From assembly GCF_004348545.1 (NCBI RefSeq), contig NZ_SMKL01000006.1, positions 62,001 through 126,000 of the forward strand: a stretch of 64,000 bases of DNA, in the 5' to 3' direction. The first letter of the stretch is position 1; every line of letters begins with the position of its first letter. Below, piece after piece: positions 2,409 through 34,759 of this stretch. The translations under genes and the position numbers were made by a program. The notes beneath the pieces are model-generated. The model was not told the DNA's origin, searched no databases, and saw only the letters and a program-made list of their open reading frames with translations. Origin of the DNA: Jiangella ureilytica. Its GTDB lineage: Bacteria > Actinomycetota > Actinomycetes > Jiangellales > Jiangellaceae.

Positions 2409-2455
2409 TTGAGCCATGGACCACCGCCATCTACCATACTGAAACACAGGTTCCA
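2409..2455 (+). promoter_or_regulatory. Promoter with TGAAA-N6-TTCCA inverted-repeat operator (site 1)
   Basis: A -35 box TTGAGC (2409-2414), a 17-bp spacer and a -10 box TACCAT (2432-2437) are followed after 2 bp by TGAAACACAGGTTCCA (2440-2455). The same arrangement occurs at 3555-3602, 4718-4765 and, inverted, at 31070-31118. It would drive the two SnoaL-like genes. An operator at about +1 suggests repression by blocking RNA polymerase. Confidence 0.75.
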
Positions 2456-2569
2456 TTCGTTGAACAACCGATGCCGCAGGCGAAACCCGCCACCATCGCG
2501 ACGGCCATTCCCGCGCGAGACGATCGATACGGCCACGTACACCGCTCACTCCGAGAGGCGCGAACCCGC

Positions 2570-3019
2570 GTGACATGCAAACTGCTGGCACAGAAGGCGT
2601 TCTCCGGCATCGAGTCCGCGGCCGGCCGGCCGCGCGCACCCGAGGACTTCCGGCCCTACACCGACCTGATCGCGACCGACTGCATGCTCACGTTCGGCGT
2701 GCCTGCCGACACGCCGCTGGGGACGGCGTTGCACGGGCGCGCAGCCATCATCGACTTCTGGACGAGGCTCGCACCCGGGTTGTTCGGCGACGTGCACCTC
2801 GACGAGCCGCTCTCCTTCGTATGCGACACCCAGCGCGCCGTGGTACTGGGGCGCGAGAGCTACGACATCGTGCTGACCGGCCAGAGGGTCGAGGGCAAGG
2901 CCTTCACCGCCGTTCTCGAGTTTCGCGACGGCCTGATCGTCCGCGACCGACGGGTCTACGAGATGGCTGAGTTCATCGACGCACACCGTCACCACCGGAG
3001 TTCGGAGGCCGCCCGATGA
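2570..3019 (+). CDS. NTF2/SnoaL-like small alpha+beta-barrel protein
   Basis: A 149-residue protein of the NTF2-like (SnoaL/LimA/ketosteroid isomerase) fold, with F-R-P-Y-T-D-L near the start, a central strand FTAVLEFRDGLIV and the closing helix motif YEMAEFID. Such proteins are small cytoplasmic isomerases, hydrolases or cyclases acting on hydrophobic metabolites, or non-catalytic binders. The GTG start is chosen because family similarity begins there and GAGAGG lies upstream; the open frame extends further 5'. The stop overlaps the next SnoaL-like gene in ATGA, so the two are probably translated together and may form a heteromer. A broken third copy lies at 8414-8655. The substrate is unknown. 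Confidence 0.68.
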   Translation: MTCKLLAQKAFSGIESAAGRPRAPEDFRPYTDLIATDCMLTFGVPADTPLGTALHGRAAIIDFWTRLAPGLFGDVHLDEPLSFVCDTQRAVVLGRESYDIVLTGQRVEGKAFTAVLEFRDGLIVRDRRVYEMAEFIDAHRHHRSSEAAR

Positions 3020-3510
3020 CCGATCCTGCCCAGTGGAGCCAAGAGCAGATCAACACCGGCCTGGCGCTGCGCGCGTGGTCGTACTACTACATCCACTCCT
3101 CCATCCGCGACACGACGACCTGCTACCAGCCACTGATCGACCTGTGCGCCGAAGACATCATCTGGTCCCACGACGGGCCGCGGGACGAGCGGGTACCCAC
3201 CTATCCCGGCGTGATCCACGGAAAGCAGGCGCTGGCAGACATGCTGTCCTGGGAGGACGACATCGTCGGCGAACTGGACCTGCTCGACCCGATCGAGCGT
3301 CCGATCGAGTTCATCGCCGAGGGGAACCAGGTGGTCGCGTTGATCGCGGAGAACTACCGCATCAAGCGAACCGGCGCCGTCGTGCGCAACGATCTCGCCG
3401 TAGTCGTGATGGACTTCGAAGATCACCTGATCACCCGGATGCGGATCATCGCCAACCTGGCCGACTACATCGAGACCCATTTGGGCGTCGGCTGGTCCGT
3501 CCGCGCCTGA
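3016..3510 (+). CDS. NTF2/SnoaL-like protein, second copy
   Basis: A 164-residue NTF2-fold protein. It is tryptophan/tyrosine-rich at the N-terminus (AWSYYYIHSS) and has the family's C-terminal strand-helix pattern (VVMDFEDHLITRMRII, then ADYIETHLG). The ATG overlaps the stop of the first SnoaL-like gene. Its last third resembles the frame-shifted remnant at 8574-8655, which shows the family was locally amplified. The genes share operator sites with an oligopeptide-type importer, so a role in processing an imported compound is plausible but inferred. Confidence 0.7.
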   Translation: MTDPAQWSQEQINTGLALRAWSYYYIHSSIRDTTTCYQPLIDLCAEDIIWSHDGPRDERVPTYPGVIHGKQALADMLSWEDDIVGELDLLDPIERPIEFIAEGNQVVALIAENYRIKRTGAVVRNDLAVVVMDFEDHLITRMRIIANLADYIETHLGVGWSVRA

Positions 3511-3554
3511 CCGCAGCGCTCAGCCCGCCGTCAGTCCCATCGCCCGTTCCTGGA

Positions 3555-3602
3555 TTGAGTTCAAGCCGATCTGGTGTCACGATGAGTGAAACACCGGTTC
3601 CA
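3555..3602 (+). promoter_or_regulatory. Promoter with TGAAA-N6-TTCCA operator (site 2)
   Basis: TTGAGT (3555-3560), 17 bp, then CACGAT (3578-3583), followed after 3 bp by TGAAACACCGGTTCCA (3587-3602). It lies upstream of the epimerase gene and has the same layout as sites 1, 3 and 4. The -10 box is weaker than in site 3. Confidence 0.68.
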
Positions 3603-3685
3603 TTTCCACCATCGGCTACCTGGCTCATTCCGGCACGTACTCACCGTGTCGCAACGATCACAGAGAACGGGAAGTGGTGCGTGAC

Positions 3686-4681
3686 ATGCGTGTACTGGTG
3701 ACCGGTGCGGCGGGCAGGGTGGGCGCGAACATGGTTCGGCGCCTCGTGACCGCCGGCGCCGACGTCAAGGCCATGGTGTTACCGGGCGATCCGCTGCGCA
3801 GCAAGCTCGACCCTTTCCCCGACGTCGAGATCGTCGAGGCCGATCTCAGCGACCAGCCGGCCATCGACGCCGCGTGCAAGAACGTCACCCATGTCGTCCA
3901 TCTCGCGGCCCAGCTGATCCGCAGCGACACCGCCGTCGACCGCTTCTACGACGTCAACGCGTTCGGCACCCTCCGGCTGCTGGAGGGCGTCGTGAAGGCC
4001 GGCGTCCCGATCGATCGGTTCGTGCTGGCCAGCTCCGACGGCACCTACCGCCCGGGGGCGCCACCCGCCGTGCCGCTGACCGAGGACTCGCCGCAGGAAC
4101 CGGCCGACTACTACGGCACCGGCAAGCTGCTGGGCGAGTACATTCTGCGCAACCACGCCGCCCAGTACGCCATCCCGTTCGCCATCACCCGGTTCGCGAC
4201 CGTCGTCAGCCCCGAGGAGGCCGGCGACATGTTCCGCCTCGACTTCTGGCGGCGAGTCCTGAGCTGGCAGGCGCTGGGCAAGGACTGCCACATCTGGCAC
4301 CTCTTCGACGGCCAGCCAGACCTGGTCAAGATCTTCGATGCTCAGACCGGCGACGCGCCAGGTGACACCGCCGTGGGCTTGACCGGCCCCGACGGCATCC
4401 CGTGGACCCTCTCGATCCTCGACGTCCGCGACGCCGTGGACGGCCTCTACCTGGCACTCACCGAGCCCGAGGCCGTGGGCCACGCCTTCAACCTCGCCGC
4501 CGCCCGCCCCACCTCCCACGACGACGGCGCGGCCGCTATCGCCGACGCCTACGGCGTGCCGAAACTCATGGTCGAGATGCCGATGGCGCACCATCTCGAG
4601 CTCGACATCCGCCGCGCCCGCACCATGCTCGGCTTCGAGCCACAACGCGACTTCGTCCGAATGCTCGATTCGGCATGCTGA
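3686..4681 (+). CDS. NAD-dependent epimerase/dehydratase-family (extended SDR) protein
   Basis: A 331-residue extended SDR with the N-terminal Rossmann motif TGAAGRVG, HLAAQ after the fourth strand and the active-site YYGTGK (YxxxK). The usual serine region reads ASSDGTY. The family epimerises, dehydrates or reduces nucleotide sugars or related hydroxy compounds. I preferred the ATG over the GTG codons at 3674/3677 because MRVLVTG is the conserved family start. It is clearly paralogous to the SDR at 9776-10801 in the sugar cluster. Its own operator (site 2) places it in the SnoaL/Dpp regulon, so a small-molecule catabolic role is more likely than polysaccharide synthesis. Confidence 0.75.
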   Translation: MRVLVTGAAGRVGANMVRRLVTAGADVKAMVLPGDPLRSKLDPFPDVEIVEADLSDQPAIDAACKNVTHVVHLAAQLIRSDTAVDRFYDVNAFGTLRLLEGVVKAGVPIDRFVLASSDGTYRPGAPPAVPLTEDSPQEPADYYGTGKLLGEYILRNHAAQYAIPFAITRFATVVSPEEAGDMFRLDFWRRVLSWQALGKDCHIWHLFDGQPDLVKIFDAQTGDAPGDTAVGLTGPDGIPWTLSILDVRDAVDGLYLALTEPEAVGHAFNLAAARPTSHDDGAAAIADAYGVPKLMVEMPMAHHLELDIRRARTMLGFEPQRDFVRMLDSAC

Positions 4682-4717
4682 TCCCCACCATGTCAGTCCG
4701 GCAATCCCCAGCACCCG

Positions 4718-4765
4718 TTGACACCGGTCGGGACCTACTCTAATTTCACTGAAACCGGCGTTTCA
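4718..4765 (+). promoter_or_regulatory. Promoter with perfect TGAAA-N6-TTTCA operator (site 3)
   Basis: A strong -35 TTGACA (4718-4723), 17 bp and -10 TAATTT (4741-4746), then 3 bp and TGAAACCGGCGTTTCA (4750-4765). The arms are a perfect inverted repeat. It drives the binding-protein/permease operon, whose start codon lies 43 bp further on. Confidence 0.82.
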
Positions 4766-4808
4766 TTTTCTTGGGTGTCCGCCGATGAAGATCGACAGGA
4801 GACTCGAT

Positions 4809-6419
4809 ATGAATGCGAGCTGGCAAAACGACAGGTTCGAGAGTCTCTGGCAAGACCGCGTCAGCCGACGTGAGCTTCTTCGCCGAGCCGGTCTGGGAGC
4901 GGCGGGCCTTGGGCTGGCGTCATTGGTCACATCTTGCAGCACCGGCTCCACCAACCAGGGGCCGACCTCCGGCGGCGACTCAGTTGTCTTCACCGCAGGC
5001 CAGACGAGCGCGTGGAACGGACTGGATCCCACCAGCCCACTCGAGGGAGCCATCGCCATCTCCACGCTATGGGGCGACCGCCTCTACCAACTGGACCCGT
5101 TCGCTCCTCGCACGGAAGTGCTTCCACAACTCGCAGAGGCCCTACCGGAGCAGATCGATCCGACCACGTACCGCATCGGGCTCCGGCAAGGTGTCAGTTT
5201 CCACAACGGAAGCCCTTTCACCGCGGGCGATGTCGTGTTCACGCTCCAGCGCTTGCTCGACCCGGCTGTCGGGGCTTTCAACACGCAGTTCCTCAACTTC
5301 ATCGCCGGCGTGGCGGCCATCGACGACCACGCTGTCGAGGTCACGCTGAAGGCTCCGACCGCGTTGCTCGCCGAACGACTCACGATGGATCCTGTGCTCT
5401 CCAGCACAGTCGTCACGGAAGAACTCGCCCTGCAACCCGTGGGCACCGGCCCGTATCGGGTCGTCTCAGCTATTTCCGGCCAGGAGGTCACGCTCGAGCG
5501 CTACGCCGAGTACACCGGTGATCGCGAGCCCACCTACCAGCGGATCACCATCACCAACGTCGGTGACTCGACGGCACGGATCTCTGGTCTGCAGAGCGGG
5601 CGATTCAAGCTGATCGAAGACGTGCCGCCGAGCGCTAACGCTCAACTCGAGGGAGATGAACGCGTCGAGGTGGGTGTCGTCGACGGCTACGACTGCAGCC
5701 ACATGCTCTTCCACTGCGGCAAACCACCCTTCGACGACCTGAGGGCCCGTCAGGCCGTATGCTTCGCGATCGACCGGGACGCGATCACCAGTACCAGCTT
5801 CTTCGGACACGCGAAGCCCAACTGGGACGGCTGGTTGCCGAGCCATCCCGACGCCACCCCACCGACGATCTCCTATCGTTTCGACCCAGATGAAGCTCGG
5901 CGGCTACTGAGCGAGGCCGGCCATGGCACCGGCCCCGTGCCAATGGACCTGCTGATCTCGGCAGGCAATAGTCAGATCGACTCGCAGATCCCCATCATCG
6001 AGCAGAACCTCATCGACGCCGGCTTCCAGCCCAACCTCCTGCCTGGCGAGCATGGCAGCCGAATCGCCATGGTCCAGGAGGGCCGCTACAGCGCCTGGCT
6101 CTTCAAGGGCGACCTGTCCGGTGCCTTCAGCCCAGCCTTGGACACCATGCTCCGGGCCCATTTCTTCGGCATTGTGCCCCGTGAGTTCATGCGCTGGGAC
6201 GGGGCCGCCGACGCTGAAGCGCTGCTGGCAGAAGCCGCTGGATCGGCCGACGAGGCCGGCTATCGTCAAGCGCTGTCCGAGATTCTCGAACTCATCCAGG
6301 AGCAGGTACCCGCGCCGACACTCCATTCAGTCCAACGCATCACCGCATGGTCGTCGAGCCTCTCTGGCTTCCGACCGATACCCGCCGCCGGATTCGTCCT
6401 CGACGGTGTCCACGGCTGA
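4809..6419 (+). CDS. Dpp/Opp-type ABC transporter substrate-binding lipoprotein
   Basis: A 536-residue SBP_bac_5-family protein exported to the outer face of the membrane. The N-terminus carries a twin-arginine-like signal (SRRELLRRAG) followed by a lipobox ending LVTSC, so it is probably a Tat-exported lipoprotein. Later motifs such as RIGLRQGVSFHNGSPFTAGD are characteristic of the dipeptide/oligopeptide/nickel family. The ATG at 4809 is preferred to one at 4785 because AGGAG lies 7 bp upstream. Two permease genes follow; no ATPase follows, and the likely ATPases are at 29218-31034 under the same operator type. The ligand is probably a small cationic, peptide-like or amide compound, but this is not determined. 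Confidence 0.9.
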   Translation: MNASWQNDRFESLWQDRVSRRELLRRAGLGAAGLGLASLVTSCSTGSTNQGPTSGGDSVVFTAGQTSAWNGLDPTSPLEGAIAISTLWGDRLYQLDPFAPRTEVLPQLAEALPEQIDPTTYRIGLRQGVSFHNGSPFTAGDVVFTLQRLLDPAVGAFNTQFLNFIAGVAAIDDHAVEVTLKAPTALLAERLTMDPVLSSTVVTEELALQPVGTGPYRVVSAISGQEVTLERYAEYTGDREPTYQRITITNVGDSTARISGLQSGRFKLIEDVPPSANAQLEGDERVEVGVVDGYDCSHMLFHCGKPPFDDLRARQAVCFAIDRDAITSTSFFGHAKPNWDGWLPSHPDATPPTISYRFDPDEARRLLSEAGHGTGPVPMDLLISAGNSQIDSQIPIIEQNLIDAGFQPNLLPGEHGSRIAMVQEGRYSAWLFKGDLSGAFSPALDTMLRAHFFGIVPREFMRWDGAADAEALLAEAAGSADEAGYRQALSEILELIQEQVPAPTLHSVQRITAWSSSLSGFRPIPAAGFVLDGVHG

Positions 6420-6459
6420 CGGCGCGCACCTTCAACAGCCCGCTACGGAAGGCCCCCTG

Positions 6460-7485
6460 ATGGTCCTGCTCATCGCGGATCCCGAACTGGGCGACGACGA
6501 TGTCACCGAACGTCGCCGCGCACGCCGAGCGACGTGGCCTTATGTGCTTCGTCGTCTCGCGATGGCGCCCCTGATCCTGCTCGGGGTCTCGCTCGCGATG
6601 TTCATCATGGTCGACCTCTCACCGAACGATCCGGTCACCGCGCGCCTCGGCATGCTCGCCGACGCCGAGGCGCGCCGCCAGTTCGCCGCCGAACACGGGC
6701 TCGACGACCCGCTGCCGCTTCGGTTCTGGCACTTCCTGGTGGACTTGGTGCATCTCGACCTCGGAGACGCCATCGTGCGATCGGAACCGGTCAGCACTCT
6801 CATCGGTCAGGCGCTCCCCGTGACCGTAGAGCTCATCGGTCTCTCACTGCTGATCTCGCTACCGGTGGCGGCACTCCTCGGCACAGCCGCGGCCTGGAAG
6901 GAGGGCCGCGCCACCGACCGCGTCATCAGCACGCTCGCAGCCTTCGCGCAGGCAACACCTGGCTTCTGGGCCGGCCTCGTCTTCATCCAAGTCTTTGCCG
7001 TGTCACTCGGCGTTCTTCCCTCCGGTGGCTACGTGCCGCTCTCCATGGGGTTCACGGCGTGGCTGACCTCGATGATCGGCCCGGCCCTCGTCCTCGCCAT
7101 GGGCTTCGCGGCCGCCCTCACACGTATCGTCCGCGCTTCCATGGCCGATGAGTTGGCGAAGGACTATGTCCGCACCACTATCGGCGCAGGTGTCTCCTGG
7201 CCGGTCGCCCTCGGGCAGAGTGTGTTCCGGAACGCGCTGCTCGCTCCCTTGACCGTCGTTGGGATCTTCGTCGGAGCCATGATGTCCGTCGCAATCCTGG
7301 TCGAGGTGGTCTTCAACCTCCCCGGGCTGGGAACCCTTCTCGTCACCGGCATCAACCAAGGTGACCTCGCGGTCGTCAGGGGCGCCGCCTTGGTGGGGGC
7401 GACGGCGTTCGTCACGGTCAACCTGGTCGTGGATCTTCTCTATCTCGTACTTGCACCGCAGAGCGCGGAAGCGGGGACATCATGA
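6460..7485 (+). CDS. Dpp/Opp-type ABC transporter permease (DppB-like)
   Basis: A 341-residue inner-membrane permease with about six hydrophobic segments. The N-terminal helix is LAMAPLILLGVSLAMFIMVDL. The binding-protein-dependent transport signature occurs near ELAKDYVRTTIGAGVSW, with the EVVFNLPGLGTLL motif usual for DppB. The ATG is preceded by GGAAGG at 7 bp, and its stop overlaps the DppC-like start in ATGA. It would form the translocation pore with the next gene product. Confidence 0.9.
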   Translation: MVLLIADPELGDDDVTERRRARRATWPYVLRRLAMAPLILLGVSLAMFIMVDLSPNDPVTARLGMLADAEARRQFAAEHGLDDPLPLRFWHFLVDLVHLDLGDAIVRSEPVSTLIGQALPVTVELIGLSLLISLPVAALLGTAAAWKEGRATDRVISTLAAFAQATPGFWAGLVFIQVFAVSLGVLPSGGYVPLSMGFTAWLTSMIGPALVLAMGFAAALTRIVRASMADELAKDYVRTTIGAGVSWPVALGQSVFRNALLAPLTVVGIFVGAMMSVAILVEVVFNLPGLGTLLVTGINQGDLAVVRGAALVGATAFVTVNLVVDLLYLVLAPQSAEAGTS

Positions 7486-8357
7486 CCGCACAGAGCACGC
7501 TCGTCAGCGGATTCGAGGCCGACCCGCCGGGCCGGGGGTTCCCTCCGGCCAGCCGCTTACGCGGGCCCGTTGCCCACTGGAGCGCGTTGATCGTTCTCCT
7601 CGCCATGATCGTCCTGCTCGCCCTTCCGGCGATCTGGACCACCTCGCCCACGGCTCTGGATCCCTCCAACGCCCTCAGCCCGCCGAGTTTGGATCATCCA
7701 TTCGGCACTGACCAGGTCGGCCGCGACATCGCTGCTCGTGTCCTGCACGGTGCGCGGCTGAGCGCGCTCGTTGCCGTCGCTTCTACTCTGATCGCCCTCG
7801 TGGCCGGGGGCATTCTCGGCGCTGCGGCGGCAACTGGTCCGCGCTGGCTCTCGGAGATCATCATGCGCGTGGTCGATGTGGGTCTCGCGTTCCCGGGCAT
7901 TTTGCTCGCCATCGTCTTGGCCGCCGCGATCGGCCCACATCTCTCGACCACGATCATCGTGCTCGGCGTACTCTTCACTCCGCCCATGGCGCGGGTGATG
8001 CGGGCCCTGGTGTTCAAGGAGTACGGCGAAGATTATGTGCTGGCAGCCAGGCTCACCGGAACCAGTCGGCGACGTTTGGTCATCTTCCACATCAGCCGCA
8101 ACATCGCCCTCCCTGTCACGGTCTTCATCACGATCACCATGGCCGAGGCAATCGTCGCGGAGGCGGCCCTATCGTTCATCGGCGCCGGGATTCGGCCGCC
8201 AGCACCGTCCTGGGGAAACATCATCCGCGATGGCTACACGATGATCAGCACAGGCGCATGGTGGATCTCGCTCTTCCCCGGCTTCGCCGTACTCGCAGCT
8301 GTCTTCGGCCTCAACCGTTACTCCGAAATGATCGGCAAGCATGTGCGAATGCGATGA
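7482..8357 (+). CDS. Dpp/Opp-type ABC transporter permease (DppC-like)
   Basis: A 291-residue permease with the DppC hallmark HPFGTDQVGRDIAARVLHGAR after the first transmembrane helix. The EAA loop is at EYGEDYVLAARLTG and the C-terminal motif is AEAALSFIGAGIRPPAPSWG. It overlaps the DppB-like gene by 4 bp. No transporter ATPase follows: the next sequence is a SnoaL-like remnant and then the oppositely oriented sugar operon, consistent with an interrupted operon. Confidence 0.9.
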   Translation: MTAQSTLVSGFEADPPGRGFPPASRLRGPVAHWSALIVLLAMIVLLALPAIWTTSPTALDPSNALSPPSLDHPFGTDQVGRDIAARVLHGARLSALVAVASTLIALVAGGILGAAAATGPRWLSEIIMRVVDVGLAFPGILLAIVLAAAIGPHLSTTIIVLGVLFTPPMARVMRALVFKEYGEDYVLAARLTGTSRRRLVIFHISRNIALPVTVFITITMAEAIVAEAALSFIGAGIRPPAPSWGNIIRDGYTMISTGAWWISLFPGFAVLAAVFGLNRYSEMIGKHVRMR

Positions 8358-16577: not shown

Positions 16578-18964
16578 CAGCGCAACCGCCAGCTCTTCCG
16601 TGAGGTGGGCATGATGTCGTCGCCCTCGTTGTCGTGGGCGAGGTAGACGGAGAACAGGTTGATCGACGACGGTGTCAGCAGCCGGTCCGCGAGCCGATCC
16701 GGATCGACGGTCACCAGCCGCTCGTGCGTCACTGTCGTGCCGGCCCAGGTCTCCTGCCAGGGCGGCTCGACCGGCGTCAGGAGCGACATCTGGGCATCCG
16801 CGGTGGCCGCGTGCTGCAGCTCGCGATTCGACCGGATGATGGAGTACCCGCCGTTGAGCAGAAAGAAGATGCTGATGTTGCCGTCCACCCGGCCGTGCTC
16901 GTGCCGTAGCTGCTGGGCCAGGCTCGGCAGTGACGACGGCACCAGGCGGGCGGCCCCGTCGCCGATGAAGCCCAGCACGTTGCCCGGCCGGGTCAGCGCG
17001 ATCGACGGGATGGCCTGCAGCGCGTCACCCATCAGTGCCCGCCCGTACCAGCCGGAGAACCCCGGCCCGGTGCGCGCGAGGTTGCGGATCGCCGAGATGC
17101 CGCCGCGGCCGACGTCGTAGAAGCCGGTGTACTCGTAGCCGTGGCCCGTGATGAGGCCGCGCAGGACGCCGTCGACCGCGGTGAAGAAGTGCTCGTGGCT
17201 CATGGGCACCGACGGGACCGCGGCGAGCGGGTCGCCGGTGGCCCGCCGGGCCCGGGCGATCGCCTCACGCCGCGCCCGCACCACCCACTCGCCCGGGGCG
17301 ACCCGCGGCGCCAGCCGGCGCAGGAATGACGACAACTCCTCGACCACCGGAAGGTCGGTGAAGGGGGCGACGTGCGCCGGGGTGTCCGTGACCTGCACGA
17401 TCCGGCAGTCCTGGTACAGCACCTTCTCCGGGTACGGCGTCGCGAGGTCGGTGATGCGGCTCTTGAGGAAGAACAGCGCATGGTCGCCGTGACCCAGCCG
17501 CTTGCCGCCGGGGTGCAGCAGGCTCCAGACCTGTGGCGAGCACCCGTAGATGCTCATCGTGCCGACGAACTCCTCGACCTCACGACCCTGGTGGTAGCGA
17601 GCGACGGTTCCCGGCCGTCCGAGCGAGTCGACCAGCGCGATGCCGGCCCGGTGGGCGAGCTCGTAGACCAGCCCGCGCTCGTCCTCGGTCAGGTTGCCGC
17701 ACTGCCAGACGACCGGACCCGGCTCCTCGTTGAGGATGCGGGCGACGGCGTCGACGGTGTCGTCGTCGGCCCGCGGGTGCGCGGCCGCGACCGTGACCTT
17801 GGGGATGTCGATCGGGCCGTCCATCCGCAGGATCGACGGGGCCGTCAGCAGGACCACCGGTCCGCTGCGGCGGTGGTACGCCCGGAACGCCGTCGCGAGG
17901 TCCTCGGCCAGCCGCTCCGGCTCGGTCAGGTAGAAGCACGGCAGGCCGCGGGCGGCGAACACGGCCCGGGCGTCCTCGTCGTCGTGGACGGTGCCCTGGA
18001 AGGGCTGCCAGCCGCCGGGCGCCGTCTCGCCGAAGACGATGAACCCGCGCGCCTGCGAGTCGCGCAGGTTGGCCAGAGTGCCCTTGAGCTCGTCGACCAT
18101 GCCGGCGGTCGCGACCAGCAGGAACGGCGCCTGGTCGAGCTGCCAGCGGGCCAGCGCTCCGCACGCGAGGCTGTGCTCGTTGGGACCCCGCAGGACGGGG
18201 TGGCCGGCCTGCCGGGCGATCGTGGTGGCATCCTGGATGAGCTTGGCGGGCAGCGTGCCGGTGAAGAAGTGCAGCGCCCAGCTCGGACCCGACTGCGCGG
18301 TGAGGAAGTCCGTCAGGGCCAGTGCCAGCGTTCCGGCGCGCTCGGTGTCCGGCAGCAGCGCGCGCTGGTTGACGTGGCGGGCCTGGACCAGGTCGGTGAA
18401 CGCCGTGAGCATCTCGGCGGCCAGCACCCAGTCCTCATCGGGCAGGCTCCGCGACGTGCACACCGTCCGCGAGTAGACCTGGTCCTCGTCCACCTCGTCG
18501 TAGACGACGACGGAGTACGGCGAGACGCCGATGCCCAGGTGCTGGCGCAGCTTCGCCAGCGTCTCGACGACGGTGTCCAGCCGGCCGCCGACGTCACCGC
18601 CGGTCACCGCCGTCGTGGCGTCGACCAGCAGGAGCACCGTCGGTGCGGCGGTCCACGGGCGCGGGCCGTCACCGGGCTCCGTCGTCTGCGGGGGCAGCAC
18701 CTGGCGCAGCCTGTCCTCGACCAGGCTGAGGCGGGCCACCTCGACCAACTCGACCCGGGCCTCGGGCAGCGCCTCGTCCAGGTAGGTGTTCGCGCGTTCC
18801 GCCAGTACCTGGGCCGGCTCCGGCCAGGCGGTCGGGAACACGTCCTTGTCCAGCGCGCCGGCGAACCAGCGGTTCGCGCCCGCCAGCTGGCCCAGCGCCG
18901 CCGCGGCGGTGGCGTGGAAGGCCGGGCTGCTGCTGACGATCGCGACGTACAGCTCCTGCGTCAT
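16577..18964 (-). CDS. Thiamine-diphosphate-dependent enzyme with a long N-terminal extension
   Basis: A 795-residue protein. The last ~560 residues follow the pyruvate-oxidase/decarboxylase layout: a PYR domain with the GPNEHSLACGALARW glutamate segment, a central domain with VVWQCGNL, and a PP domain with the GDG at about residue 668 and the paired NGG roughly 30 residues later that bind ThDP-magnesium. The first ~235 residues match no family I recognise and contain a predicted strand VLLLVDATTAV. ThDP enzymes decarboxylate 2-keto acids and can transfer the resulting acyl anion to an aldehyde or ketone. The ATG at 18964 has GAGAGGAA upstream. It is the first gene of the sugar/acyl operon. 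Confidence 0.8.
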   Translation of the reverse strand: MTQELYVAIVSSSPAFHATAAAALGQLAGANRWFAGALDKDVFPTAWPEPAQVLAERANTYLDEALPEARVELVEVARLSLVEDRLRQVLPPQTTEPGDGPRPWTAAPTVLLLVDATTAVTGGDVGGRLDTVVETLAKLRQHLGIGVSPYSVVVYDEVDEDQVYSRTVCTSRSLPDEDWVLAAEMLTAFTDLVQARHVNQRALLPDTERAGTLALALTDFLTAQSGPSWALHFFTGTLPAKLIQDATTIARQAGHPVLRGPNEHSLACGALARWQLDQAPFLLVATAGMVDELKGTLANLRDSQARGFIVFGETAPGGWQPFQGTVHDDEDARAVFAARGLPCFYLTEPERLAEDLATAFRAYHRRSGPVVLLTAPSILRMDGPIDIPKVTVAAAHPRADDDTVDAVARILNEEPGPVVWQCGNLTEDERGLVYELAHRAGIALVDSLGRPGTVARYHQGREVEEFVGTMSIYGCSPQVWSLLHPGGKRLGHGDHALFFLKSRITDLATPYPEKVLYQDCRIVQVTDTPAHVAPFTDLPVVEELSSFLRRLAPRVAPGEWVVRARREAIARARRATGDPLAAVPSVPMSHEHFFTAVDGVLRGLITGHGYEYTGFYDVGRGGISAIRNLARTGPGFSGWYGRALMGDALQAIPSIALTRPGNVLGFIGDGAARLVPSSLPSLAQQLRHEHGRVDGNISIFFLLNGGYSIIRSNRELQHAATADAQMSLLTPVEPPWQETWAGTTVTHERLVTVDPDRLADRLLTPSSINLFSVYLAHDNEGDDIMPTSRKSWRLR

Positions 18965-19038
18965 CGCGCGTTCCTCTCGCCGTCGCAACTCACTGATCTG
19001 GATCAAGCACCAAGCCCACCTGCAGCGACCCTTGGAAG

Positions 19039-19063: not shown

Positions 19064-19177
19064 CCTGCGTGCGCGGACATGAGGCCTCAACACCGTGATA
19101 CGATCGAAACTGCCATTTTATTTAATGGAATATCGCTCAGATACGTGCTGCTCCGGCTCAGCAAGAGGGGATTCCAG

Positions 19178-20434: not shown

Positions 20435-21609
20435 CCCTTGGTCTCCCCAGCAAACTCCTCGGCCTCTTCCGCAGAGAACTGAGCCGAAGGATACGAGCAC
20501 CTGATGTTGAGCTGCCCAGCATACGTGTACACCGAGTACTCAGGAAAAGCTGCCGGGGAAGCGAGCGGGGCGGCGGTTCGGAACACGCTGCGTAATGTGA
20601 TGTCAGTCGGATGCGCCAACTCTGGCATTACTCCCATGTTGCTGATGATCATTTGAGCGATGCGTGGCTCGAGCTCCGTTTCGATCGATGACAGCAACAT
20701 CGACGACAAATCGACAGGCCGCACCTCGCGGCGCGCCAGGGCCGCATCCAGCTGTTGCTTCACCGCGCGCCCGACCTCTGCGGGAGCGTCTCGTCTCGCC
20801 ACCGCCACCTGACCTAGGTGGACACCGAGAAGATTCGTGGTCTCGCTTACCCCGACGGACGGTGCGACTCGATCTCGGAGATCCACGGCAGTCCAGCAGC
20901 CCATCGATGCCGCGCTCGATCGGCCGTCCCGGCGACGCAGCGCGACGAGAATCGCGCCGCTGACGAGTGCGTGAACCGTGAGGTTCAGGGAACGCCCGGT
21001 CTTGATCAGTTCGGCGGTCACGCCCTCGGACAAGCTGATATATCGATCGACGAGCACGCTTGCCTGGGCAGGTTCCAGCGCCAGACCCGGACGTGCCGGC
21101 TCAGTGACGCCCCATCTCTCCTCAAGCAGTTCAAGCGGCGGTCGAGGGAGGCCCGAGTTTACCTCGACGGAGGTTGCCTTGCCGGTACCGATATCGGTAT
21201 ACAAGCGCCAGAGCTCCCCGAACATCACCATCGTGGCGTGGCCATCGGCCACCGCATGATCGGTCCGTAGACCTACGTAGCCGACCTCGCGTCCTTGGAT
21301 GATGATCAACCGAACCACGCTCTGCTCAGGTGTCCACTGCCTGTCGGCCTCTTCTCGCAGCGCGGCCATTCCTCCTTCACGGAAGGTGACTGATGGCTGA
21401 CCATTGAGCGGAATGCTCAGGAGATGCTCGGTTCCCATCGAGCGAATCTGGGCGCGAAGAACGGGAAATTCAGCACAGAGCAGGTGGAAGGCACGTGCCA
21501 TCCTGTCTTCATCCAGGCTGCCGGAAAATTCTGCGAAATAGGTCAGAGCAGACCGCAATTGAACTTCGAGCTCGTCCAGGGGTCGTTGCATCGCCACTGC
21601 GCTTCCCAT
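20398..21609 (-). CDS. PapA/condensation-domain-type acyltransferase
   Basis: A 403-residue CoA-dependent acyltransferase-fold protein with the catalytic HxxxDG motif (HAVADG) at about residue 120. A second-half SVYTYAGQLNIRCSYPS segment resembles PapA5 and other polyketide-associated acyltransferases. It would transfer an acyl group from a thioester to a hydroxyl or amine. It follows the 3-hydroxyacyl-CoA dehydrogenase by 6 bp, so it is the last gene of the KAS III operon. An alternative ATG at 21591 has a slightly better ribosome-binding site. The 3' end overlaps the convergent serine hydrolase by 37 bp. Confidence 0.75.
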   Translation of the reverse strand: MGSAVAMQRPLDELEVQLRSALTYFAEFSGSLDEDRMARAFHLLCAEFPVLRAQIRSMGTEHLLSIPLNGQPSVTFREGGMAALREEADRQWTPEQSVVRLIIIQGREVGYVGLRTDHAVADGHATMVMFGELWRLYTDIGTGKATSVEVNSGLPRPPLELLEERWGVTEPARPGLALEPAQASVLVDRYISLSEGVTAELIKTGRSLNLTVHALVSGAILVALRRRDGRSSAASMGCWTAVDLRDRVAPSVGVSETTNLLGVHLGQVAVARRDAPAEVGRAVKQQLDAALARREVRPVDLSSMLLSSIETELEPRIAQMIISNMGVMPELAHPTDITLRSVFRTAAPLASPAAFPEYSVYTYAGQLNIRCSYPSAQFSAEEAEEFAGETKGQLLRMVSLADS

Positions 21610-27517: not shown

Positions 27518-27963
27518 CCGAGTCGGACAACACCTGGTTCACCTTGCTGACCATGAACACCAACCAGGCGCACTTCAATGCGGAGGTGGGTGCGGCGTCG
27601 GAGTTCGGCCGTCCGCTGATGGTGTCCACCCTCACCCTCGCCATCGCGATCGGGCAGAGCGTGATCGACACGACGCAGAACGCCTTCGCCAACCTCGGGC
27701 TGGACGAGGTGCGGCTCACGGCTCCTGTCTACGCAGGCGACACGCTCTGGTCTGAGTCGCTGGTGCTGGAGAAGCGTGAGTCGAAGAGCCGTCCGCAGGC
27801 GGGAATCGTCACGATCCGCACCCGGACGCTGAATCAGCACGGCGGCGAGGTGCTCTCGTTCGTCCGGACGTTCTACATTCACAGACGTGGCGCCGATGCC
27901 GCGCGCTCGCTCTTCCCCACTGCCAAGGAACCGCTGTCGCGGCGCGGGACGGCGGACTCGTGA
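27514..27963 (+). CDS. MaoC-like dehydratase, probably N-terminally truncated
   Basis: A 149-residue hotdog-fold protein. It starts almost directly at DNTWFTLLTMNTNQAHFN, a segment normally preceded by ~25 residues containing the first strand of mesaconyl-CoA-hydratase-like proteins. APVYAGDTLWSES and the final VRTFYIHRR are intact. The GTG overlaps the stop of a 24-codon frame at 27443 that has its own GGAGG, so it may still be translated by coupling. It abuts the CaiB fragment in GTGA style (27960-27963). The family hydrates enoyl-CoA in short-chain acid metabolism; function here is doubtful. Confidence 0.65.
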   Translation: MTESDNTWFTLLTMNTNQAHFNAEVGAASEFGRPLMVSTLTLAIAIGQSVIDTTQNAFANLGLDEVRLTAPVYAGDTLWSESLVLEKRESKSRPQAGIVTIRTRTLNQHGGEVLSFVRTFYIHRRGADAARSLFPTAKEPLSRRGTADS

Positions 27964-28361
27964 GGCCCCTCGAGGACGTGCGGATCATCGCTCTCGAGCA
28001 GTACGGCGCCGGGCCGTTCGGCTCATTGCATCTGGCTCAGCTCGGGGCCGAGGTCATCAAGATCGAGGATCCGTCCGTGGGCGGCGACGTCGGACGGTAC
28101 GTGCCACCATTCGCCGAGGGCAGCGACTCCCTCTTCTTCGAGTCATTCAACCGCAACAAGCGCAGCATCACCCTCGACGTGCGAACGCCCGAGGGCCGAG
28201 CCGTGTTCGAGGACCTGGTCCGGTGCTCCGACGCGGTGTACTCGAACCTCCGCGGCGACGTCCCCGAGAAGCTGGGGATCAGGTACGCCGACCTCGCCCA
28301 CGTGAACCCGCGGATCGTCTGCTGCTCGCTCAGTGGATTCGGGATGACCGGTCAGTCGTGA
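27960..28361 (+). pseudogene. N-terminal fragment of a CaiB/BaiF-family CoA-transferase
   Basis: The reading frame gives the first ~130 residues of a class III CoA-transferase: ALEQYGAGPFGSLHLAQLGAEVIKIEDP, NRNKRSITLDVRTPEG and the LSGFGMTG motif. It ends abruptly at TGQS-stop, where intact proteins continue for another ~260 residues with the rest of both domains. The catalytic aspartate region is missing. The break coincides with the broken end of a convergent CitE-like gene, so one deletion probably removed both 3' halves. Confidence 0.8.
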
Positions 28362-28913
28362 CGCCGTCGATGGGCGGCGGCAGCTGAGCGGCCGCCGAGC
28401 CGAGTACGACGAGCGAGCGGGCGGCCGCCATCGCCGCGAAGTCGGCGTGATCGACGCCGAGTTCGCGGCCCAGGTCGGCGTTGCCGAAGACCGCCCGGAC
28501 CACTCCGGTCACCGAGCAGATGGCGCGAGCTTCGAGCGCCGCCGCCGCGGTCTCGATGAGCGGAGCACGCAGGAGCCGGGTGCGAGCCGGCCGAGCAGCT
28601 CCCACACCTGGCCGGGCGCCGTGACCTTCGCCAGCATGACGGCGCACGGCCGGGCAGCCAGCATGGCGACGTCGTCGTCGTACCACTGGGTGCTCGGGTC
28701 GTTGATCCGCACGACACCGGCACCGCCGTTGGCGAGCCAGCGGCCAATGTTCTCCCGCGCCGTCGCCTTCGCGGGCGGGGCGACGGCGTCCTCGATGTCG
28801 AGGACGATGTCGTCGGCGCCGCTCCCGGCCGCCTTGGCAAACCGGTCGGGACGGTTGCCGGGCACGAACAGCAGCGACCGGGCCCGCGCCAGGTGCGACC
28901 ACTCCGCCGTCAT
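28353..28913 (-). pseudogene. HpcH/HpaI-CitE-like lyase gene, truncated and frameshifted
   Basis: The start overlaps the DUF5988-like stop (ATGA) and the frame reads ARSLLFVPGNRPDRFAKAA, DIVLDIEDAV and VVRINDPST of a citrate-lyase-beta/malyl-CoA-lyase-type enzyme. Near 28560-28575 the frame shifts; the next frame reads APLIETAAAALEARAI and AAAQLPPPIDGVTT. The last ~70 residues expected after PPIDGV are absent, replaced by the antisense of the CaiB fragment. The intact enzyme would cleave a 3-hydroxyacyl-CoA to acetyl-CoA and a keto acid. Confidence 0.78.
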
Positions 28914-29134
28914 TCGGCGATCCACGTGCGGTCGGTCCAGACGAACACCGGCACGGGGTTGCCGTCATCGCCGGGCTCGTCGAAGTGGTCGAGGTCGAAG
29001 TGCTCGTAGCCCGCGCCGAACTGGATCTTCAGCCTGCCCTCGTCGACCGCTGCGCGGTCGACCGAGATGTGCGAGCCGAGGCCGGTGCAGCCCACCAGCT
29101 CGACCTGGACATTGTCGTCGTCCGTCCGTGTCAC
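28910..29134 (-). CDS. Small protein resembling the DUF5988 family
   Basis: A 74-residue acidic protein with the pattern KIQFGAGYEHFDL near the middle and a C-terminal VFVWTDRTWIAE. That pattern matches my recollection of DUF5988-type small actinobacterial proteins of unknown function. The GTG start has AGGGG 5-6 bp upstream, and the stop overlaps the CitE-like start. No function can be assigned. It lies between the lyase remnant and the transporter ATPases, so it probably shares their transcript. Confidence 0.55.
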   Translation of the reverse strand: MTRTDDDNVQVELVGCTGLGSHISVDRAAVDEGRLKIQFGAGYEHFDLDHFDEPGDDGNPVPVFVWTDRTWIAE

Positions 29135-29217: not shown

Positions 29218-30033
29218 TCACCGCTTGAGGCTGGGAACAGAGGCGAGCAGCGTGCGGGTGTACTCGTGCTGCGGATCGTCGTGGATGCGCGCAGTCGAGC
29301 CGAGCTCGACGATCTCGCCGTTGTACATGACGGCGGTGCGGTCGGTCAGGTAGCGGATCACGCGGATGTCGTGCGACACGACGAGCAGCGCCAGCCGACG
29401 GCTGGCCCGCACCTGCTGGATGAGATTGAGGATCTGCGCCTGCACGGACACGTCGAGAGCGGAGGTGGGCTCGTCGGCGACGATGATGCCGGGCTCGACG
29501 GCGAGCGCTCGGGCCAGAGCCACGCGCTGCAGCTGGCCGCCGGAGAGGGCGCGGACCGGCCGGCTGACCAGCTGCGCGGGCAGCCCGACACTCTCGAGGA
29601 GGGCGGCGACCCGATCGGTGCGCTCGGCCCGGGTGCCGATGCGCTGCACCGTGAGCGGGTCGCGGACGACGGCGCCAACCGTCAGCCGCGGGTTGAGCGA
29701 GCTGCGCGGATCCTGGAAGACCAGCGAGGCGTCGCGGCCCAGCATGCGATAGCGCGGGATGCTCTTCATCGCGTAGAGGTCCTGGCCGCGGAAGGTCACC
29801 TGGCCGTGCACCGGGCGAATCAGGCCGAGCAGCGTGCGGGCAAGGGTGGTCTTGCCGGAACCCGACTCTCCGATGAGGCCGACGGCCTCGCCCTCGGCGA
29901 TGCTCAGGGACACATGGTTCAGGGCCCGGTTCACCTGGCCGCGCGAGTGGTAGTCGACGACGAGGTCGCGGGCCTCGAAGATGGGCGCGTCGGCCTGCTC
30001 GTCGAGGCCGTGGGTGAGGTCGACGGCGGTCAT
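29218..30033 (-). CDS. Dpp/Opp-type ABC transporter ATP-binding protein (DppF-like)
   Basis: A 271-residue ATPase with Walker [10 protein letters not shown] (from about residue 55), the LSGGQLQRV signature, Walker [13 protein letters not shown] and the switch histidine in VVSHD. The order RSSLNPR before the signature is typical of oligopeptide-type ATPases. It overlaps the DppD-like gene by 4 bp. No permease or binding protein is adjacent; the matching set is at 4809-8357 and is preceded by the same type of operator. Confidence 0.9.
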
Positions 30034-31034
30034 CGCGGCCCGCCGTCCGTAGAGGTGAGCGGATGATGACACGCCAGCCGCCGGGGGCCGTCGGTCAGGA
30101 CGGGCCGTGCAGCGCAGTCGTCCTGGGCGTGGGAGCAGCGGTCGCGGAACCGACAGCCGCTGGGAAACTCCGTCGGCGGGTGCACGAAGCCGGGGATGGT
30201 CGCCAGCGTGCCATGGCCCTCGTCGAGGCTGCTGCTCGCCGCGAGCAGGCCGGCGGTGTACGGGTGCCGCGGGTTCGTCAGGATCTCGGCCGTCGGCCCG
30301 GTCTCGACGAGCTGGCCGCCGTACATCACCGCGACCTGGTGGCAGAGCTGCGAGACGATCGCGAGGTCGTGGCTGATGAACAGCAGCGCGAAGTCGAGTT
30401 CCGCCTGGAGCCGCTGGAGCAGCTCGATGATCTTGGCCTCGACGGTGACGTCCAGCGCCGTCGTCGGCTCGTCAGCGATGAGCAGGTCGGGCTCGCGCGC
30501 CAGCGCCAGGGCGATCAGGACCCGCTGCCGCTGGCCACCCGAGAGCTGGTACGGCTTCGCCTTGAGGATGCGCGCGTCGGGCAGCCCGACGGCGTCGAGG
30601 AGGTCCGACGGCGTGTATGGGGACCCGAGACGGAACACCTGGCGCAGCTGGGCGCCGATGCTCATGCCCGGGTTGAGGCTGGTGAGCGCGTCCTGGTAGA
30701 CGATGCCGATGCCGGCCCCCCGGACCGCCCGGCGCTCGCGTCCGCGCAGCCGGTAGAGGTCGCGGCCACGGAAGTGGATCTGCCCGCCCACTTCGGCGGT
30801 CGGCGGCAGCATGTTGGCAGCCGCCAGACCCAGCAGCGACTTGCCGCAGCCGGACTCCCCTACGATGGCCAGCGACTCGCCCGGCCCGATGCTCAGGCCG
30901 ACACCGTCGAGCACCGCCACGTCGCCATAGCGCTTCGGGAACCGCACGGTCAGGTCGGAGATGGCCAGTGTGCTGGTCGACGCTCCGCCGCCGTCGTCGA
31001 CGCGATGCGGCTGAATCCTCGTGCTCACCGTCAT
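30030..31034 (-). CDS. Dpp/Opp-type ABC transporter ATP-binding protein (DppD-like)
   Basis: A 334-residue ATPase with Walker A GESGCGKS (about residue 59), LSGGQRQRV, Walker B LLIADEPTTALD and LFISHD. The oligopeptide-type C-terminal extension contains the cysteine cluster FPSGCRFRDRCSHAQDDC, which in some relatives binds an iron-sulfur cluster. It is the first gene of the unit; its ATG lies 35 bp after operator site 4. Together with the DppF-like protein it would energise the importer encoded at 4.8-8.4 kb. Confidence 0.9.
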   Translation of the reverse strand: MTVSTRIQPHRVDDGGGASTSTLAISDLTVRFPKRYGDVAVLDGVGLSIGPGESLAIVGESGCGKSLLGLAAANMLPPTAEVGGQIHFRGRDLYRLRGRERRAVRGAGIGIVYQDALTSLNPGMSIGAQLRQVFRLGSPYTPSDLLDAVGLPDARILKAKPYQLSGGQRQRVLIALALAREPDLLIADEPTTALDVTVEAKIIELLQRLQAELDFALLFISHDLAIVSQLCHQVAVMYGGQLVETGPTAEILTNPRHPYTAGLLAASSSLDEGHGTLATIPGFVHPPTEFPSGCRFRDRCSHAQDDCAARPVLTDGPRRLACHHPLTSTDGGPR

Positions 31035-31069: not shown

Positions 31070-31118
31070 TGAAATATCAGTTTCAAACAAGCGTAGAGTC
31101 CTCCTCCCCCGACGGCAA
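31070..31118 (-). promoter_or_regulatory. Promoter with TGAAA-N6-TTTCA operator (site 4)
   Basis: On the minus strand: -35 TTGCCG (31118-31113), 17 bp, -10 TACGCT (31095-31090), 4 bp, then TGAAACTGATATTTCA (31085-31070). The arms are a perfect inverted repeat. The layout matches sites 1-3 more than 26 kb away and links the DppDF-like ATPases to the same regulator. Confidence 0.8.
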
Positions 31119-31205: not shown

Positions 31206-31574
31206 GTGCACGTGCCGCAACGCGAGACTCCCGACGACTGGCCGGCGCTGGCCAGGCAGCTCGGCCAGCGCGTGCGGCAGTTGCGAGAAGAGCGGAAGCG
31301 GCAGACCGAGGATCGGCGGTTCACCCAGGAAGGCCTGGCGCACGAGGCGGGTGTCAGCCGTAACCACGTCCAGAACATCGAGAACGCCCGCAACAACTCC
31401 CGAGGCGAGGACGGACGTCCTGGCGTAGGCAATCCCGGCGTGGCCACGCTGCTCGCGATCTCGCGGGCCCTCGAGGTCGAGTTCCTCGATCTACTTCCGG
31501 ACGGGCTGCTGCCCGAGGCGGTGCGACACCGGCCATGGGCCGAGACAACGGACGATTCGCCGAGAACACTATGA
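31206..31574 (+). CDS. XRE-family helix-turn-helix regulator
   Basis: A 122-residue DNA-binding protein. The HTH runs from VRQLREERKRQ through FTQEGLAHEAGVSRNHVQNIENAR, followed by an insertion (NNSRGEDGRPGVGN) and the closing helix TLLAISRALEVEFLDLLP. It has no further domain. The GTG at 31206 is followed by an in-frame GTG at 31212. It converges on, and slightly overlaps, a second XRE gene with the same architecture; each has a related palindrome upstream. It could control the neighbouring transporter or PtmE-like gene, but no target is proven. Confidence 0.78.
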   Translation: MHVPQRETPDDWPALARQLGQRVRQLREERKRQTEDRRFTQEGLAHEAGVSRNHVQNIENARNNSRGEDGRPGVGNPGVATLLAISRALEVEFLDLLPDGLLPEAVRHRPWAETTDDSPRTL

Positions 31575-31868
31575 GTAGCGGCACGATTCGTCAACCGCAC
31601 CCGGGTCATCGTCGCGCAGGCCTGCGATCCCTACTGGCAGGAGGTCGACCACGGTGACGCCCAGAGCACGAGCGATCCTCAGCAGGACGTCCAGGCCGGG
31701 GCACGCGCGCGCGTGCTCGACCTTCTGCAGGTAGCCGCGGCTGATGCCGGCCAAGTGGGCAAGCTGCTCCTGGGTCAGGCCCCGCGACAGCCGCAGAGAG
31801 CTCACTCGAACGCCGAGCGCCCGGGCCACCTGCGGCCAGTCGTCCGATCGTTCCAGTGGCGCCGTCAT
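31569..31868 (-). CDS. XRE-family helix-turn-helix regulator (paralogue)
   Basis: A 99-residue protein with the HTH LRLSRGLTQEQLAHLAGISRGYLQKVEHAR (shown in parts) and the same RIARALGVTVVDLLPVG C-terminal pattern as its convergent neighbour. The N-terminal DDWPQVARALGVRV also matches the partner's DDWPALARQLGQRV, so the pair arose by duplication. The ATG at 31868 is the first methionine of the aligned region; the frame is open to 31928. The stop codons of the two genes overlap by 6 bp. Confidence 0.75.
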   Translation of the reverse strand: MTAPLERSDDWPQVARALGVRVSSLRLSRGLTQEQLAHLAGISRGYLQKVEHARACPGLDVLLRIARALGVTVVDLLPVGIAGLRDDDPGAVDESCRYS

Positions 31869-31913
31869 CCCCACGAGGCTGAGCGAGGCGGCGGCACTGG
31901 TCAGCCCACAGCA

Positions 31914-31929
31914 GTGGGCTTCGCACAAT
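31914..31929 (-). promoter_or_regulatory. Operator-like sequence upstream of the second small XRE gene
   Basis: ATTGTGCGAAGCCCAC on the minus strand matches the arm-loop-arm sequence at 31151-31167 at 13 of 16 positions and lies 46 bp before the XRE start. It sits just beyond the 3' end of the PtmE-like gene. Confidence 0.5.
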
Positions 31930-33009: not shown

Positions 33010-33262
33010 GTCGCACACTCCTGGTCGCACTGCTGAGGTCAGCGTGATAGCGATACCGCCGAACCGGGCAGGGGACGACTTTCCTGCCCGCTCACATCTC
33101 TGACCAGGTGAAACACCGGCCTCGATACGCGAACCGGGCTCATTCGCATTCTGGACATCGTTCGTCGCGAAGTGCACCGGCGAGGCGGCGACAATCGCCG
33201 TAGCCTCCGATCAGAAGCCCATGCAACCCCGGAGCCGGGCTTTCGAAAGAGGTGTGCGCGAT
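33010..33262. other. 253-bp divergent intergenic region between PtmE-like and XRE-fusion genes
   Basis: It holds the shared-core element (33068-33089) for the minus-strand gene and, at 33109-33119, TGAAACACCGG, which matches only the left half of the Dpp-regulon operator. No other structure is evident. Confidence 0.4.
33068..33089 (-). promoter_or_regulatory. Shared-core element upstream of the PtmE-like gene
   Basis: The plus strand reads GCAGGGGACGACTTTCCTGCCC. The first 14 bases match the core of the elements at 19039 and 23557 with only an R and an M position varying. Here it is also flanked as an inverted repeat, GGGCAGG-N10-CCTGCCC (33066-33089). It lies 59 bp before the start codon. 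Confidence 0.5.
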
Positions 33263-34759
33263 ATGAACCCCGAATTTCACGGTGCCGCGGAGCCGCCAAT
33301 CGGCCAGTTGATCCGGTCGGCCCGGCTGCGCCTGCACATGAGCCAGTACACGCTCGCCGACAGACTGGCCGCGGTCTCCGGCAAGCCCACCATGGGCCGC
33401 GATCGCGTCGCCCGCTGGGAGCGCGGCCGGCAGGTTCCCCGGCATGAGTGGCGGCAGTGGCTCGCCGTGGTCCTCGAGGTCCCGGTCCAACGGCTGGACG
33501 CGGGTGCGGCGACGGCGCGGCGGCAGAACCGGCTCGGGCAGGCGGCCGCGGTCGCCCCGCTGCCGGAGTCGGGAACGCCTCGCCGGCCCCAGGGCACGCC
33601 GGCGCTGCTGCCCGTGTTCAGGTCGCGGGTGCAGGCGGGCATCCTCGCGGCCACGCTGCTCAACCCCGACCGCGCGTTCAGCCTCACCGAACTGGCCGAG
33701 CACGCCGGCGGCTCGCTCGCGTCGGTGTCGAAGGAGGCCAAGCTCCTGGAGGATGCGGGCATCCTGACCAGACGCAACGACGGCGCCATCCGGCTCATGC
33801 GGGCAGCCACGGACCGCCCCACCCTTGCCCCGCTCACCGAGCTGATCCGGGGCACCTACGGGGTGCCGCAGATCGTCGGCGAGGAGTTCGGCCGCGTCGC
33901 GGGCGTCGCCCGGATCGCCCTCACCGGCACCTGGGCGGAGCGGTTCACCGGCGTCGTAGGCCCGGAGCCGGACGTCATCCAGGTGCGGCTCACGCCCGAC
34001 CACGACCACACGCCCCGCCGGCCGGAGCTGCTGGCCGCGGCGCGCCGGGCCGAGCGCCGGCTGCACCGCCGCGTCGCGTTCGCCGTGGTGGGCCGTCCTG
34101 ACGGCACCCGCCGCCCGGGCGGAACGACCAGCACGGGCGGACCGGCCAACGGCGTCGTGGCCGCCCGCGGCCTCCGCCCCACGACCCTGGTGACCGTACG
34201 GACCCGCCCGCACGAGCCGATCCGCATCCCCCGCCAGCACGGCGCGGAACCCGTCGTTCACATAGCGCCGCCGGCCAGATCCGACACGGTGCCTGTCTCG
34301 GCGGGCGGCTGGACGGGCGGTGCGAGCCTGGTGGCCGAACTGCTGGCCGGCAGCCGGCTCGAGCTGTTCAGCGGCCCGGCGGCCGACGGCCGGCCCTACT
34401 TCGACCAGGCCGCACACCACCTCGCCGCCGCCGAGGACGTCATGGCCGCCTCCCCCGGGTCGGCGTTCGTGCTGGTCTGCCAGGCCGCGGAGCTCGTGGG
34501 CTGCGGGTTGCTGGCCGCGCAGGGCCTCCGTCCCGCCGCGGGCGCCGACGGCGACGTCGTCAGCCGCGCCGTCATCGCGCAGTTCGGCGACCGCTTCGGC
34601 CACCTCGAGCTGCTCCACCGCCGGCTGCTGAGCCTCGCCCACCCGGTCGGGCGCGACAACCGCGTCGCCGCGCACGACGTCGAGGCCGCGCTGCCCGCGA
34701 TCCGGTCGCTCGTGCAGGAGGCGCGGACGCTCGCGCCGCAGCTCGACCTCTTCGGCTGA
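33263..34759 (+). CDS. XRE - winged-helix - degenerate MNT nucleotidyltransferase - HEPN-like fusion
   Basis: A 498-residue protein. Residues ~12-75 form an XRE HTH (LIRSARLRLHMSQYTLADRL, VARWERGRQ). Residues ~120-185 form a winged helix (AFSLTELAEHAGGSLASVSKEA). Next comes the MNT-type segment GTWAERFTGVVGPEPDVIQV, aligned with the GSWAARYxGExGPxPxDIDV motif of minimal nucleotidyltransferases; the catalytic aspartates are replaced by V and Q. After a Gly/Thr/Arg-rich linker, residues ~360-498 are a helical HEPN-like domain. The XRE part resembles the regulator at 38056-38373. MNT-HEPN pairs are usually toxin-antitoxin partners, so a single DNA-binding chain is unusual. It may be a regulator or a self-contained defence protein. 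Confidence 0.7.
   Translation: MNPEFHGAAEPPIGQLIRSARLRLHMSQYTLADRLAAVSGKPTMGRDRVARWERGRQVPRHEWRQWLAVVLEVPVQRLDAGAATARRQNRLGQAAAVAPLPESGTPRRPQGTPALLPVFRSRVQAGILAATLLNPDRAFSLTELAEHAGGSLASVSKEAKLLEDAGILTRRNDGAIRLMRAATDRPTLAPLTELIRGTYGVPQIVGEEFGRVAGVARIALTGTWAERFTGVVGPEPDVIQVRLTPDHDHTPRRPELLAAARRAERRLHRRVAFAVVGRPDGTRRPGGTTSTGGPANGVVAARGLRPTTLVTVRTRPHEPIRIPRQHGAEPVVHIAPPARSDTVPVSAGGWTGGASLVAELLAGSRLELFSGPAADGRPYFDQAAHHLAAAEDVMAASPGSAFVLVCQAAELVGCGLLAAQGLRPAAGADGDVVSRAVIAQFGDRFGHLELLHRRLLSLAHPVGRDNRVAAHDVEAALPAIRSLVQEARTLAPQLDLFG

Follow-up and report, generated by a model that had tools for sequence, protein, structure and literature searches.

What connects a pair of SnoaL-like genes, an extended short-chain dehydrogenase/reductase (SDR) gene and the two halves of a peptide-type importer in Jiangella, and which protein would control them? 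In the 64,000-nt window analysed here (C135:62001-126000 of a 6.35-Mb Jiangella genome, G000), an initial annotation had described a 16-bp inverted repeat, TGAAAN6TTYCA, at 2440, 3587, 4750 and 31070, set at a fixed distance from the -10 box of four promoters. The repeat is present at each of these positions, and a genome-wide pattern search returned no further place. The promoters and operators are as follows.

2409-2414 and 2432-2437, plus strand: promoter 1, -35 TTGAGC, 17 bp, -10 TACCAT; predicted from sequence and geometry score to drive the SnoaL-like pair
2440-2455, plus strand: operator 1, TGAAACACAGGTTCCA, 2 bp past the -10 box; matrix score 22.0
3555-3560 and 3578-3583, plus strand: promoter 2, -35 TTGAGT, 17 bp, -10 CACGAT; predicted to drive the SDR gene
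3587-3602, plus strand: operator 2, TGAAACACCGGTTCCA, 3 bp past the -10 box
4718-4723 and 4741-4746, plus strand: promoter 3, -35 TTGACA, 17 bp, -10 TAATTT; predicted to drive the transporter operon
4750-4765, plus strand: operator 3, TGAAACCGGCGTTTCA, 3 bp past the -10 box; its arms form a perfect palindrome
31118-31113 and 31095-31090, minus strand: promoter 4 (span 31090-31118), -35 TTGCCG, 17 bp, -10 TACGCT
31070-31085, minus strand: operator 4, TGAAACTGATATTTCA, read toward the ATPase genes, 4 bp past the -10 box

A search of the whole genome for the stricter form TGAAACN4GTTTCA with at most one mismatch recovered these same four places, so that no equally good match lies inside coding sequence, and the reversed pattern at the same tolerance gave 0 matches. 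Operators 3 and 4 match TGAAAN6TTYCA on both strands (shuffle control, 0/100). When 2-3 mismatches were allowed, the genome was at background with no excess of operator-like sites, and the signal is therefore carried by the near-perfect sites and their position. This background level would suit the idea that AT-rich promoters in a GC-rich genome yield look-alike palindromes by chance, but that reading is next to impossible: four sites with 0-1 mismatches fall within 31 kb, against 0.008 expected per 64-kb window and 0.8 per genome under a first-order Markov model, and both the sites and their promoter geometry are conserved in other Jiangella, where the promoter hexamers are kept while the spacers diverge. 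Three further candidates were rejected as extra operators, namely the matrix match at 20972, which lies inside the coding sequence of a PapA-like gene, the matrix match at 33264, which is coding (at the start of a gene for a 512-aa protein) and is not conserved in the relatives G009, G005 and G011, and a weak site at 19105 upstream of a PigD-like gene, which is not conserved in G012 or G009.

The geometry, which the initial annotation had considered hard to explain by chance, held up both in the sequence, with a 17-bp spacer in all four promoters and the operators 2, 3, 3 and 4 bp past the -10 box, and in a promoter score built from a hand-weighted -35/-10 consensus. Across 24 orthologous sites from G000 and its relatives, this score peaked only where the -10 box ended 2-5 bp before the operator (8.07 compared with 5.59 +/- 0.23 in shuffles) and was at background at gaps of 6-9 and 9-12 bp; for the five operators of G000, including one described below, it reached 9.44 at the 2-5 bp gap. 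All four sites precede start codons, with operator centres about 120 nt (GTG at 2570), 80-90 nt (3674/3686), 28-52 nt (4785/4809) and 43 nt (31034) away. Tandem second operators at a spacing of 17-23 nt were not found (mean 6.05 matches compared with 5.40 in shuffles), and the sites are single.

The genes that had been assigned to this local regulon were also identified correctly, and they are accompanied by a divergent group at the left end of the window.

2570-3019, plus strand: SnoaL-like gene 1, GTG start (Pfam SnoaL_2, E 6.5e-9)
3016-3510, plus strand: SnoaL-like gene 2 (Pfam SnoaL_2, E 2.8e-5, slightly under the family cut-off)
3674-4681, plus strand: NAD-dependent epimerase/dehydratase, extended SDR (Pfam Epimerase, E 4e-33)
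4785-6419, plus strand: solute-binding lipoprotein SBP_bac_5 (Pfam, E 5e-66); translation probably starts at 4809
6460-7485, plus strand: Dpp/Opp-type permease B (Pfam BPD_transp_1)
7482-8357, plus strand: Dpp/Opp-type permease C (Pfam BPD_transp_1)
30030-31034, minus strand: ATPase 1, OppD/DppD-like (Pfam ABC_tran and oligo_HPY, NCBIfam)
29218-30072, minus strand: ATPase 2, OppF/DppF-like (Pfam ABC_tran and oligo_HPY, NCBIfam)
2364-1417, minus strand: AstE/AspA-like deacylase, divergent from operator 1 (Pfam, synteny in relatives)
about 1420-302, minus strand: threonine-synthase-like PLP enzyme, divergent from operator 1 (Pfam, synteny)
within 1-2364 and running off the window, minus strand: Gfo/Idh/MocA oxidoreductase (Pfam, synteny)

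The minus-strand genes in 1-2364 are probable further members, and operator 1 may control them as well. Also nearby are genes for an MlrC-like M81 peptidase, a RidA protein, a class III aminotransferase, an aldo/keto reductase and an SDR. All five components of Dpp/Opp importers are present (SBP_bac_5, two BPD_transp_1 permeases and two oligo_HPY ATPases) but, unlike the usual set, they are divided between two operator-bearing operons, which are separated by about 22 kb and flank an unrelated, biosynthesis-like island. To judge from the gene content, an amide- or peptide-like amino compound may be taken up and degraded, with the two transporter halves presumably forming one importer.

According to the initial annotation, no regulator was obvious in the window, and two small XRE genes beside site 4 were put forward as candidates. 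The first part of this assessment stands, since the likely regulator gene lies just outside; the XRE candidates did not find support. An IclR-family gene at C135:57443-58333 (window -4557 to -3667) is located outside the window, 3.7 kb upstream of it and 7 kb ahead of site 1, and is followed by an SMP-30-like gene in the same unit. Its product matches Pfam HTH_IclR (E 3e-13, residues 50-100) and IclR_C (E 7e-45, residues 122-282), placing it in the family, and solved IclR proteins match it across both domains. A fifth operator, TGAAACTGCAGGTTCG, occupies C135:57400-57415 in the promoter of this gene, arranged as CTGGCA-17-TATTCT followed by 5 bp and the operator, which is 2 mismatches from the ideal. 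Among 12 Jiangella genomes including G000, orthologues of the linked IclR gene were found in 11 of the 11 others (70-93% identity), and the self-promoter site is in the same place in all 12, with at most 2 mismatches in 11 and 3 in G008, and is kept while much of the remaining intergenic region diverges. This pattern points to autoregulation. We also observed a degenerate element, TGGAGC-N4-GTTTCR, at C135:57218-57233 (window -4782) ahead of the divergent class III aminotransferase gene; an alignment of 8 Jiangella shows it retained with minor variation, and it may be a sixth site.

The motif itself belongs to a known IclR class. In a study of 320 MicrobesOnline genomes, the consensus of IclR group 2 is TGRAACAN1-2TGTTYCA (Suvorova and Gelfand 2021, PMC8222616), and the Jiangella motif is the even-length (N2) form of this consensus, in the frame TGRAAC-N4-GTTYCA: sites 1-3 have the arms TGAAAC/GTTYCA with N4, while site 4 has one arm base changed, and the A/T on either side of the central N1-2 is not invariant. 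As for group 2 regulators, the regulator gene is near its putative targets, and the distance to the gene start is within or close to the group 2 range (-20 to -80 nt) for four of the five sites, the exception being the SnoaL site at about 120 nt. Group 2 tandem second sites at 18-22 nt have no counterpart found in Jiangella. KdgR of gamma-proteobacteria, an IclR-family regulator with the motif RWWGAAACGNCGTTTCAKKA (PMC8222616), shares the GAAAC...GTTTC arms and a catabolic regulon, but its motif is odd-length (N3) and the Jiangella regulated genes are not pectin genes; the linked IclR protein scores 134 bits against the NCBIfam KdgR model, below the equivalog cut-off of 275. Its best NCBIfam match is BhcR, at 160 bits and again below the equivalog cut-off (350), and no beta-hydroxyaspartate cycle gene set was identified at the Jiangella locus. 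A literature search for the motif in Jiangella, or for IclR-transporter regulons of actinobacteria, found nothing specific, nor did it find an IclR paper on Jiangella.

The IclR-class motif argues against both of the other DNA-binding candidates. The two XRE genes (31212-31571, plus strand; 31572-31928, minus strand) adjoin site 4 and encode HTH proteins, but XRE2 is confined to 2 of the 12 Jiangella genomes, whereas the self-promoter operator is in all 12 and is thus conserved in genomes without XRE2. Operators are also conserved in relatives whose sampled clusters have neither XRE gene, and neither gene carries a conserved copy of the operator in its own promoter. It is accordingly most improbable that either encodes the regulator. 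Hardly more credible is a regulatory role for the 512-aa protein encoded at 33221-34759, which has an XRE-like N-terminus and a winged helix. This protein gives a weak HTH match, its gene is in 11 of the 12 Jiangella, and the operator-like 16-mer at 33264 overlaps its start codon, but that 16-mer is the unconserved, coding match described above, and in G006, G008 and G013 the gene lies at a distance of tens of kb or on a different contig. The 512-aa protein has no clear family, and its C-terminal part appears HEPN-like by eye.

G000 has 16 IclR_C genes, i.e. 15 besides the linked one, and related IclR proteins may share motif classes (PMC8222616), so that another IclR-family protein could read the sites, by itself or jointly with the linked one. 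We regard this as improbable: no other IclR protein of G000 comes within E 1e-40 of the linked IclR, only the linked gene is syntenic and carries a site in its own promoter, and the absence of any further 0-1-mismatch site in the genome speaks against a paralogue reading them. Upstream of second-clade IclR paralogues (70-75% identity), we found no operator. Since the HTH helices of this siteless clade are nearly identical to those of the linked clade, the HTH alone does not account for specificity. At L015/L017 we observed a parallel cassette, in which a second-clade IclR gene accompanies Dpp-type transporter genes and genes for a PLP enzyme, AstE, an aminotransferase and MlrC, and the operator is absent.

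Conservation extends from the IclR promoter to the proposed regulon. The SDR gene has an orthologue in 7 of the 12 Jiangella (71-96% identity) and is preceded by the operator in all 7; the self-promoter operator is kept in all 5 genomes that lack the SDR gene. In four more distant Jiangella the SDR promoters retain the operator with a weak -35/-10 match. The SBP-operon operator is in 3/3 syntenic genomes (G000, G012 and G009) with the same geometry, and so is the ATPase-operon operator, as TGAAACTGGTATTTCA in G012 and as a degenerate copy in G009 (TGAAATATCAAGTTCA). Between G000 and G012, the ATPase promoter TTGCCG-17-TACGCT-TGTT is identical outside a diverged spacer. Operators 1 and 2 differ by a single base, and G012 and G009 have only one site between AstE and SDR. 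Because this single site aligns with both operators, and with promoter 1 too, the SnoaL pair seems to have arrived with a duplicated promoter. The SBP genes of G012 and G009 share 39-42% identity with that of G000, compared with 88-94% for the partner ATPases, and it appears that the substrate-specific half of the transporter was exchanged in place while the operator-bearing promoter was kept. Taken as a whole, the SBP and permease genes (4785-8357) are 39-65% identical to the same-position genes of G012 and G009.

From these sequence features we conclude that the linked IclR protein very probably reads the five sites as a repressor, with the sign of regulation taken solely from operator position. 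An IclR dimer, or tetramer, would bind TGAAAC-N4-GTTYCA directly downstream of the -10 box, covering the transcription start, and block initiation at five promoters, those of its own gene, the SnoaL pair, the SDR gene, the SBP/permease operon and the ATPase operon; the protein would thus be a negatively autoregulated repressor. A pathway intermediate or imported substrate may bind the IclR C-terminal domain and free the operator, and this release would switch on the importer and the catabolic enzymes together, the two distant operators keeping the importer halves (SBP/permeases and ATPases, about 22 kb off) in step. Steric repression relieved by an IclR-domain ligand is the simplest mechanism because the operator covers the expected start site. 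Activation by the linked IclR protein is improbable to a similar degree as reading by a paralogue. The family does include activators, among them BhcR, which activates the bhc cluster of the beta-hydroxyaspartate cycle in Paracoccus (PMC11323563), but the bhc promoter, which is activated, has its potential BhcR site upstream of the -35 box, whereas every site here follows the -10 box and covers the expected start, a position at which bound protein gets in the way of RNA polymerase.

The regulon is well supported but conventional, of a well-known kind and not surprising. It would offer a concrete, testable regulator-operator pair for Jiangella, and it illustrates how phylogenetic footprinting of operators can lead to a regulator that lies just beyond a fixed window. 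By grouping a catabolic cassette (MlrC-like peptidase, RidA, aminotransferase, PLP enzyme, AstE-like deacylase and SMP-30) with a split peptide-type importer, it also narrows the search for the substrate.

The biosynthesis-like island between the transporter halves (8632-28925) is largely conserved in G012, G009 and G011 and includes genes for a UDP-GlcNAc 2-epimerase, sugar-nucleotide epimerases, a PglD-like acetyltransferase, an acyl-CoA dehydrogenase, a PapA-type acyltransferase and KAS III, together with a PigD-like ThDP enzyme (16580-19006; 642 bits, below the cut-off of 950). Genes for a CoA-transferase III (27960-28361, 133 aa) and an HpcH/HpaI aldolase (28509-28925, 138 aa) look truncated; since the G009 counterparts are full-length (407 and 272 aa), the G000 copies seem to be decaying. 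That the repressor senses, and the importer retakes, what the island makes or a breakdown product of it is a speculative and rather unlikely idea; if true, an IclR regulon would tie the synthesis of a specialised metabolite to its uptake and turnover.

Inside the G009 island, operator-like sequences that share the promoter geometry occur at L073:14129 (CGAAACTGTTGTTTCA, before a PapA-like gene, with minus-strand TTGACA-17-CACAGT-2 bp) and at L073:7579 (TGAATCAGGCGGTTCA, past TAGAAT and before MaoC). Sites with one mismatch and again this promoter geometry were additionally observed in G006, upstream of an alpha-L-rhamnosidase gene (L076:5797), and in G005, upstream of an amidase gene (L084:3620), and these two genes are possible species-specific members of the regulon.
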